Below the pieces are notes generated by a model that did no database searches, was not told the DNA's origin, and worked only from the letters and a program-made list of their open reading frames with translations. The position numbers were made by a program, and so were the translations under genes. From Microcaldota archaeon (GTDB taxonomy: Archaea > Micrarchaeota > Micrarchaeia > Norongarragalinales > UBA97): a DNA stretch of 33,001 nt. The DNA is taken from contig JACQBR010000013.1 of the NCBI GenBank assembly GCA_016194335.1, positions 1 through 33,001 on the forward strand, in the 5' to 3' direction. How positions within the stretch are numbered: position 1 is the stretch's first letter; each line of letters begins with the position of its first letter. Shown in pieces: positions 3,135 to 9,724 of the stretch.

Positions 3135-3362
3135 TCATCCCGCCAGCCTCATCAACTGCGCCGCGAGGAGGATATCTTCCCTCTTAACTTCCTTCCTTCC
3201 AGCGTGGGCCGAAAGCTTCTTCGCGCGGAAGAGCAGTTCCTTTCCACTCTCCTCAAGCACTTCACCGAGTTTTTTGGAAGCGCATTCGCTTACCCTCTCG
3301 GCGCCGCCGTTCCTTAGGAAGTCGTCCATGTCGAACATGGAGAAAACTGTGCGTCTTGCCAC
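3135..3362 (-). CDS. Archaeal histone (HMf-like, single histone fold)
   Basis: The core matches archaeal histones: GAERVSECASKKLGEVLEE, then KLSAHAGRKEVKREDILLA. It keeps the AERVS element, the RK of loop L2 (HAGRK) and the ED-I-LA of the last helix. I chose GTG 3362 (75 residues, V/M-ARRTVFSMFD) because the TATA-like AAAATAAAAT at 3381-3390 is centred about 24 nt upstream, predicting a leaderless start there; GTG codons at 3374 and 3377 and ATG 3323 are alternatives. The protein should dimerise and wrap DNA as eukaryotic H3/H4-like units do. The short N-terminal extension before the fold is slightly longer than in HMf. It is followed closely by the 112-aa hypothetical gene. Confidence 0.9.
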   Translation of the reverse strand: MARRTVFSMFDMDDFLRNGGAERVSECASKKLGEVLEESGKELLFRAKKLSAHAGRKEVKREDILLAAQLMRLAG

Positions 3363-3380
3363 TTGTCGTCCCACCACCGG

Positions 3381-4933: not shown

Positions 4934-4961
4934 TTCGATCTTCTGTAAGTACGCAGTTGTC

Positions 4962-4969
4962 TTTTAAAA
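4962..4969 (-). promoter_or_regulatory. TATA box (palindromic TTTTAAAA) of the AAA+ gene
   Basis: TTTTAAAA is symmetric; on the minus strand it predicts a transcript starting a few nt before ATG 4933. The same element could fire towards the plus strand into the repeat array; no coding region follows there until nreA. Confidence 0.5.
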
Positions 4970-4983
4970 GGCTTGTTCTTCCA

Positions 4984-5120
4984 GTAAGAGGCCATAGGAG
5001 GCCAGTAAGTGGCTTCAAGAGGCAAATGGGCCTTTTTACGGGGCTGGTATGGGGCCAGCCGGTGACCTGTAAGTGGCTTGTATGAGTTACCTATGGGGCT
5101 CGTAAGGGGGTTAAGTGGCT
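4984..5120. repeat. Helically phased array of degenerate ~11-bp repeats
   Basis: The unit is roughly GTAAGTGGCTT, all copies in the same orientation. Best copies are GTAAGAGGCC (4984), GTAAGTGGCT (5005 and 5069), GTATGGGGCC (5047), CTATGGGGCT (5091), GTAAGGGGGT (5102) and TTAAGTGGCT (5111); weaker ones lie at 4994, 5015, 5023 and 5036. GGC cores fall at 4990, 5000, 5011, 5021, 5029, 5042, 5053, 5075, 5097 and 5117, so the mean register is about 10.6 bp, one DNA turn. An outlying CTGTAAGTACGC lies at 4943. The array occupies the non-coding stretch between the AAA+ gene and nreA, and a period of 11 is incompatible with coding. Operator iterons or an origin-like element are the main ideas. Confidence 0.7.
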
Positions 5121-5283
5121 CACGGCCCGGCTCTCTCCGCTTCCGGTAATCCCGAGGTTCAAATCGCCTTCCGGCAGGCGGTAGTTAAGCATACCATAAT
5201 GTGCAATTCCATTATTTTCCTTCCAGAATCTTGGGACGAGTACGCCCCCCGGCCTCCCCAAATCCCACCAAACGCCCCCGCAA

Positions 5284-5402
5284 ATTTTTTTCCACATTTT
5301 TTTGAAGAATTTTTTTTTCTTTTCTTTCCAAAAGATTTCGGGTTTTTCCATTGGGTTCTTTTTTCCTTCAAAGTCTGATTTTTTTCACAAAAAGTATTTT
5401 TG
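5284..5402 (+). other. T-rich low-GC tract between the repeat array and nreA
   Basis: This ~120-bp stretch is dominated by runs of T on the plus strand, in sharp contrast to the GC-rich surroundings. Between 5121 and 5283 I see no gene, only a hairpin-like CGCCT..AGGCG around 5165-5180. The T-tract could be a DNA-unwinding element, a U-rich archaeal terminator for an unidentified plus-strand transcript, or upstream promoter sequence of nreA; AAAAGTATTTTT near 5392-5402 is a plausible TATA region for nreA. Confidence 0.5.
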
Positions 5403-5424: not shown

Positions 5425-6789
5425 ATCTTCATTTGCACGAAGGGCGGCAAGCCGGTTGCGCAACGCTTTTCTTGCATCGCCCCCCCTCCTAAATGCGTGA
5501 AAGTCGTCTCTTCCGTTTTCGGCCTTCCGAAGCGCTCGGTCTTTAAGGATCTGGAGGTGGTGAGCAGCGGGGGTTCGGTGATGCTGCGCCACGGGGGGAA
5601 GCTCTACCCCGCCTCGCAATCCTCACCCGTGCTTGCGGAGGTTCTTGCGCGCAGGGACTTGGCCCAAAAGCTGCCTTACGATTTCTTCGGCCCCACGCCG
5701 CCGAACATTTTCATCGGCGAGGAGGGCTATCCCGGCGTTTTTGGCGGTCCCCTACTTGCTCTGGAGGGCAACTGGGCAGGTTCGGAAGGAAACGGGGCGC
5801 TCAAAGCCGGCATTTTGGACGACCCGACCCGCTGGAGCTCCCTTTCGTACGCGGACCTGGTCAGGATGCGCCTGCAACTGGTCAGGGGGAAGAAGCGCAT
5901 TTCGGTAAGGGAACCGGACTCGAGGTTCGCGACTGAATTGCAGGACAGCGTGCTTTCCACAACGCCCGTTGACGTGGAGGCTTCATTCTCCAAGCCCCCT
6001 TCCTTCTCGATGTATTTCTCCCCGGTAGCGCAGCCAACAGGGCCCAGCGGGATGATGGAACGGATGGAACTGGCCGGCAACCCCTCCATTCCCGCCAAAA
6101 TCGATTCGGTTATCGGGGAGAAGCTCAAGGTCGCAACGGCCGTCCCGGAATTGCTCGGGCACGGCTTTGGCTACTACTATCTGCAGAAGCTGCTGAGCGC
6201 GGGCGTGCTCGGCGTGCAGAGGCGGCTCGTCCCCACCAAGTGGGCGATTACCGCCACGGACGACATCATCGCAAAATCCGTTCTTCAAAGGGTGAGGGAC
6301 CTGCCGGAAGTGGGGGAATTCTCGATTTATTCCAACACCTTCCTATCCAACCATTTCGAAATACTCCTCATTCCAGGCAAGTGGGAATTCGAGCAGTTCG
6401 AGGCTTGGGCGCCCGCCACGCCGTGGGCGGCAATGGGCGAAGGCGGGATAATCCAGGAGCACGAGCCGTTCGAAGGCCGCACCACTTACGCCGAGAACGA
6501 GGGCGGCGGCTATTACGCCGGCAGGCTCGCCTGCGCCGAGGCCCTCGACGCCCTCAACCGCCAGGCGCGCGTGGTGGTCTTCCGCGAAATAGGCGCGGGT
6601 TACGAAGTTCCCCTCGGCGTGTGGCAGGTTCGCGAAAATGTCCGCAACGCGTTTCGGAATTCCCCCGCGAAATGCGCAACGCTTCAGGAAGCTCTCGGCG
6701 TGCTGGGCTCGCGGCTCGAGCGGCCCATTAGGCACTACGTCTCCAAAAGCGTAATCCTCTCGCAGAAAAGGATGGGCGAGTGGTTTTAG
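5425..6789 (+). CDS. nreA: DNA repair protein NreA (DUF650 family) with C-terminal PIP box
   Basis: Family landmarks are GEEGYPGVFGGPLLALEGNW, the MRLQLVRGKKRISV stretch, SKPPSFSMYFSPVAQPTGP, the segment AGNPSIPAKIDSVI, and GVQRRLVPTKWAITATDD. The last residues, QKRMGEWF, form a PCNA-interacting (PIP) box, as reported for archaeal NreA, which is linked to repair of alkylation/crosslink damage. The start is unresolved. Homologous-looking sequence with a Cys-rich N-terminus begins at ICTKGGKP (TGC codon near 5434), but no ATG, GTG or TTG is in frame between TTG 5302 (which would give a Phe-rich leader) and GTG 5497 (which would lose the cysteines). ATC 5425 or ATT 5431 would fit the TATA at about 5392-5402. 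A sequencing indel near the T or C runs is the alternative. Confidence 0.85.
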   Translation: MFICTKGGKPVAQRFSCIAPPPKCVKVVSSVFGLPKRSVFKDLEVVSSGGSVMLRHGGKLYPASQSSPVLAEVLARRDLAQKLPYDFFGPTPPNIFIGEEGYPGVFGGPLLALEGNWAGSEGNGALKAGILDDPTRWSSLSYADLVRMRLQLVRGKKRISVREPDSRFATELQDSVLSTTPVDVEASFSKPPSFSMYFSPVAQPTGPSGMMERMELAGNPSIPAKIDSVIGEKLKVATAVPELLGHGFGYYYLQKLLSAGVLGVQRRLVPTKWAITATDDIIAKSVLQRVRDLPEVGEFSIYSNTFLSNHFEILLIPGKWEFEQFEAWAPATPWAAMGEGGIIQEHEPFEGRTTYAENEGGGYYAGRLACAEALDALNRQARVVVFREIGAGYEVPLGVWQVRENVRNAFRNSPAKCATLQEALGVLGSRLERPIRHYVSKSVILSQKRMGEWF

Positions 6790-9563: not shown

Positions 9564-9585
9564 AGCGCGACTTCCCCTTTCTCTT

Positions 9586-9659
9586 GTTCTTTTTCAATTT
9601 CCTCTTGTTTTTTTTTGTTTTCTTTTTTCCCATTACTTTTTTTCCTTTACCCCTTTTTT
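9586..9659 (+). terminator. U-rich transcription terminator behind the cupredoxin gene
   Basis: Several runs of 5-9 T residues on the plus strand follow the stop at 9563. Archaeal RNA polymerase terminates on such U-rich tracts without a hairpin. The rest of the intergenic stretch to 9725 shows only a short GAGA..TCTC hairpin around 9695. Confidence 0.6.
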
Positions 9660-9724
9660 GCGTCTTGCCTGATGGCAATTCGGGTTTGTTATAGGAGATA
9701 GTTTCTCTGTTCGCTCTCCTTCCG

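Follow-up and report, generated by a model that had tools for sequence, protein, structure and literature searches.

The repeat unit of parC in plasmid R1 is 11 bp long. In this type II partition system, parC/ParR, the repeat array surrounds the promoter of its own operon, is bound at one repeat per dimer and confers autorepression (PMC5016525). At archaeal promoters autoregulated by Lrp-type proteins or Lrs14, the sites lie on one face of the helix and are bound by oligomers, and Lrs14 occludes the core promoter (PMC2995911). Here we describe an array of short direct repeats, phased to the DNA helix, upstream of a gene for an AAA+ ATPase in a Micrarchaeota genome. The analysed stretch of DNA (hereafter the window) corresponds to a single contig, 33 kb long, in an assembly of 1.18 Mb.

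As in parC/ParR, direct repeats are found at the promoter of their own operon; the cooperative binder of parC is encoded in that operon, and the same is presumed here. Unlike parC/ParR, the locus is chromosomal and archaeal, its presumed binder is an AAA+ winged-helix protein, a histone gene is its neighbour and no ParM partner accompanies it, so that a partition role here would be hypothetical. Lrp sites are two or three turns apart and are occupied by dimers of 15-kDa proteins, whereas in the present array nearly every turn carries a unit, with up to 10–20 units beside the gene of an AAA+ ATPase. It is unusual for an operator array to have a site at nearly every turn along ten to twenty turns. 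The literature searched described no such array at the gene of an AAA+ ATPase or at a histone locus of archaea, and it had nothing direct on operons that combine an AAA+ ATPase with a histone or on archaeal arrays phased to the helix, which is no proof of absence.

The initial annotation of this DNA had recorded a series of GGC cores at regular steps of ∼10.6 bp. The cores are present in the sequence, and on the plus strand they form the 3′ ends of a longer minus-strand unit. Read on the ATPase coding strand, this unit is GYCTYTTAY plus 2 nt; its version in the window is mostly GCCnCnTAC, also given as GCCnCTTAC (...GCCACTTAACCCCCTTACGAGCCCCATAGGTAACTCATACAAGCCACTTAC...). A position-weight matrix was derived from the 21 other orthologous loci, with the window left out, and the whole window was scanned on both strands for chains of units 10–12 bp apart. 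Because the matrix comes from relatives, only the score of the window is an independent test. The best phased chain lay on the minus strand from 5110 to 4984 and comprised 12 units in 10–11 bp steps, with a score of 51.7. The runner-up, a T-rich run at 9579–9684, scored 33.1, and 100 Markov sequences of 33 kb and the same composition gave a mean of 19.4 and a maximum of 26.7. An additional unit (5111–5119) lengthens the array outward, and a TATA-containing unit (4964–4972) is located two turns inward. The regular spacing was confirmed as a 12-unit phased chain, but not for every core: the one at 5029 is off phase, and around 5064 and 5086 the units of two turns are degenerate. Neither a tRNA nor a structured RNA was found in a search of the array. 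The features of the locus are compiled in Table 1.

Table 1. Features of the array locus in window coordinates.
Feature	Position	Strand	Description	Basis
Helically phased array	4984..5119	-	12–13 GYCTYTTAY-like units (GCCnCnTAC here), one per 10–11 bp	Chain scan and ortholog conservation
Unit-like TATA box GCCTTTTAAAAG	4961..4972	-	Two helical turns off the last strong array unit	Sequence
AAA+ ATPase, C-terminal winged helix, 411 aa	3698..4933	-	Presumed array reader	Pfam AAA_22 and HTH_24
Small ORF, 48 aa	3503..3649	-	Resembles ∼45-aa ORFs in the same place at most orthologous loci	
Histone paralog A	3135..3377	-		Pfam CBFD_NFYB_HMF and NCBIfam archaea_histone
Nre gene, divergent	5494..6789	+		Archaeal Nre_N/Nre_C
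T-rich tract	about 5280..5400	+	Array-to-Nre interval; not conserved	Sequence

Comparison of draft assemblies from one Micrarchaeota order placed the same array ahead of the ATPase ortholog in about 20 of 22 genomes. At the 21 other loci the same place mostly has cleaner copies of the unit (GTCTTTTAC plus two bases), the arrays of two (G007 and G025) are weak, that of G023 ranks among the strongest, and unit number differs between genomes. When unit distances were pooled over these loci (400 pairs), the best period was 10.7 bp, with a mean cosine of 0.81 vs. a maximum of 0.19 for random placement. Gaps that skip units cluster at 20–22, 30–34, 41–44 and 51–54 bp, close to whole turns, indicating that helical phase is kept beyond what mere tandem duplication would give. 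The units also have a polarity, with 141 forward vs. 19 reverse matches relative to the gene. In one genome (G002, locus L007) many units, or part of the array, are inverted with respect to the gene, and the ∼11-bp spacing is retained.

The array stands in a regular relation to the ATPase promoter. In the window it reaches up to the TATA box of the gene, and at most loci this box has the form CTTTTAAATG or CTTTTTATATG, which is itself unit-like. The last strong unit is commonly about 20, 30–32 or 42–43 bp from the TATA box (usually two to four turns; 71 bp at one locus), and at several loci a further unit follows 11 bp downstream of the TATA-box unit. A different element, TAGTGGAA, precedes the TATA box by ∼20 bp in ATPase or histone promoters of L004, L006, L014, L185 and L186. 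It persists even where the ATPase and the array are lost, and in a scan of four long stretches no TATA box elsewhere was preceded by it.

The initial annotation had asked for a motif search elsewhere. With a three-unit pattern (≤3 mismatches), all 32 matches in 20 whole genomes fell upstream of the ATPase gene and on its strand, and the reversed pattern gave no match in the same genomes; the more degenerate array of the window itself falls under the threshold of this pattern. Of the matches to a two-unit pattern run on 28 genomes, only three, in G007 and G026, were not at the ATPase locus. A wider regulon was considered on the strength of the two-unit matches at G007:C9:85190 and in G026:C5 and was rejected, as they are inside ECF/ABC transporter genes, in coding sequence, and were taken as chance. 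Apart from such chance matches within coding genes, the search revealed no array outside the ATPase locus.

The most constant neighbour of the ATPase gene is a histone gene, found downstream on the same strand at 21 of 22 loci; the remaining contig ends too early to tell. Two histone paralogs exist in the order: A is the one linked to the ATPase, B has no such linkage, and f7 genomes that lack the ATPase have histone B at most. Within the ATPase–histone interval a protein of ∼45 aa is encoded at most loci (e.g., the small ORF of the window, L003, L004, L009, L011, L013, L017 and L019). The ATPase–histone gaps extend up to several hundred bp, leaving room for a separate histone promoter. Nre is adjacent at most loci but not at all, and at loci without Nre as a neighbour the array is still found next to the ATPase; hence the array is assigned to the ATPase and not to Nre.

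Natural loss of the ATPase separates the array from the rest of the neighbourhood. In G004 and G028 the Nre, histone A and DHH genes are contiguous and the ATPase gene is missing. No array was detected there (best chains 13.4 and 16.7, at noise level), but the TAGTGGAA element and a TATA-like box are retained ahead of the histone gene. The array thus goes with the ATPase gene and not with the histone or the neighbourhood. Pattern scans of the f7 genomes G010 and G013 likewise found no array.

The ATPase belongs to an order-specific family that 22 of 29 genomes of the order encode; across 301 genomes of the phylum, three remote relatives were identified. Relatives of the ATPase appear in public records mainly under the name Candidatus Micrarchaeota. 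The AAA+ domain and winged helix ascribed to the adjacent gene were corroborated by its Pfam matches, and the recognition helix of the winged helix is more conserved (0.85) than the protein on average (0.66). The AAA_22 domain is shared with ExeA/TniB-like and archaeal ATPase_2 P-loop ATPases, and an N-terminal W-x-x-NPF motif presumably resembles that of ExeA-like ATPases; the present family differs from these groups in its order-specific distribution, C-terminal winged helix and putatively cognate repeat array. Its layout had been called initiator-like. This holds insofar as an AAA+ domain precedes a winged helix, as in Orc1/Cdc6, and remote profile similarity to Orc1 covers the AAA+ core, or P-loop domain, only. 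It does not extend to family membership: neither the Cdc6 lid nor the Cdc6_C winged helix was matched, although both are present in the genome's own, separately encoded Orc1, so the identification of the ATPase as Orc1/Cdc6 was rejected. The best fold matches of a structure model were to Orc1/Cdc6, but at its low confidence (pLDDT 65.5) they weakly support a shared layout, not membership. Searches of PDB sequences found no relative.

A remote homolog in G043 has a different repeat, CCATACAAA, in direct and inverted copies clustered at its own promoter (L024, G043:C1:268158–268217). This suggests that the cognate repeat may change together with the protein. Upstream of other remote homologs (L025, L026, L028 and L029), TCGnCAAA...TTTGnCGA-like inverted repeats were seen by eye around the TATA box, before a small gene and the ATPase homolog; the short ORF that precedes these homologs is weakly similar to the ∼45-aa ORF.

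The initial annotation had offered two readings, a replication origin or an autoregulatory operator array. As an origin, the array would provide iterons bound by an ATPase initiator, with the T-rich tract as the unwinding element. The AAA+ plus winged-helix layout, the fold matches and P-loop profile similarity to Orc1, and the presence of one site per genome favour this reading. However, canonical Orc1/Cdc6 is encoded at other loci in 59 of 60 genomes (on other contigs in the genome of the window), the ATPase gene and array are lost in relatives, and the T-rich tract, although present in the window, is missing from most orthologous loci, a comparable one occurring essentially in this genome and two AT-rich genomes only. 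In G011 a sharp GC-skew switch occurs at 63.5 kb in AT-rich intergenic DNA, 12 kb off the array at 75.7 kb. The region around that switch (62.0–64.4 kb of G011:C1, about 1800–4400 in L117) is AT-rich, apparently mostly non-coding and adjacent to an Lhr-like helicase gene, and it is a good candidate for the chromosomal origin of the genus. A weak skew minimum lies ∼20 kb from the array in G005, there is none near the array in G007, and in G014 the skew reading stops at the contig end. On the window contig, cumulative GC skew falls until about 30 kb (about 30000) and then rises. Clusters of ORB-like AGTGGAA, sought as origin markers, were not found. According to the initial annotation, a skew minimum and orc1/cdc6 at a different locus, together with lack of conservation of the array, would speak against an origin; the first part holds, with skew minimum and orc1 at other places, but conservation of the array is strong. 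Taken together, the origin with iterons and unwinding element is very unlikely.

The array may nevertheless be near the origin in some genomes, and for this reason a centromere-like role was kept among the alternatives: the ATPase would polymerise on the array, one protomer per helical turn, into a chromosome-organising or segregating complex with the dedicated histone, doubling as a promoter switch for the cassette. A single array per genome beside its presumed binder, a parC/ParR-type architecture with direct repeats around the operon's own promoter, skew minima 12 kb (G011) and ∼20 kb (G005) from the array, and a histone neighbour suggestive of a chromosome role are consistent with it. No ParM/ParA-like or separate motor gene was identified in the cassette, however (the presumed binder is itself an ATPase), G007 has no nearby skew minimum, G004, G028 and the f7 genomes manage without the array, and autoregulation alone explains all data equally, which makes this role unlikely. 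Rather unlikely, too, is control of the ATPase–histone cassette through the array by another protein, either the histone itself or an unlinked regulator. No neighbour is as constant as histone A, the period matches one helical turn and 10-bp periodic DNA favours histone wrapping, but a 9-bp word of predominantly single polarity is unlike a histone preference, the array is lost with the ATPase though histone A remains, and an unlinked regulator should have further targets, none of which was seen in the two-unit scan. Variation in unit count is what a degenerate tandem repeat without binding function would show; the same word and phase across families, the phase across skipped units and the gain or loss with the ATPase gene leave this explanation extremely improbable.

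Since the array is confined to the ATPase locus and is lost with the ATPase gene, its most likely role is that of a switch by which the ATPase controls its own gene, and not that of a replication origin. Judged from comparative sequence data, we consider it probable that the adjacently encoded ATPase binds the array cooperatively as an operator, through which the ATPase–small protein–histone cassette is autoregulated. The single cis-linked site, its fixed strand, its regular relation to the TATA box and its loss together with the ATPase gene all fit the autoregulatory alternative of the initial annotation. An operator of this kind is expected at the promoter of its regulator, and in about 20 of 22 genomes the array ends at the TATA box of the ATPase gene; it is also expected to be gained or lost with the regulator gene, as observed in G004, G028, G010 and G013. 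Ten to twenty units, however, far exceed the needs of simple repression.

In the proposed mechanism, each 10.6-bp unit would bind one winged-helix domain of the ATPase, and successive protomers would lie along a single face of the double helix, where their ATPase domains could touch, so that AAA+ contacts would confer cooperativity. The assembly would extend into the TATA box, a unit-like sequence in helical phase, and would set transcription of the ATPase, its ∼45-aa partner protein and the dedicated histone paralog, the latter presumably as part of the same transcript. The most likely sign is repression, with the core promoter being covered at high ATPase levels (negative autoregulation).

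The locus links an ATPase restricted to one order with a dedicated histone paralog in Micrarchaeota, a group of little-known chromosome biology. It offers a defined DNA site and a protein for in vitro testing, and the array may show how the dosage of a histone variant is set in these archaea.
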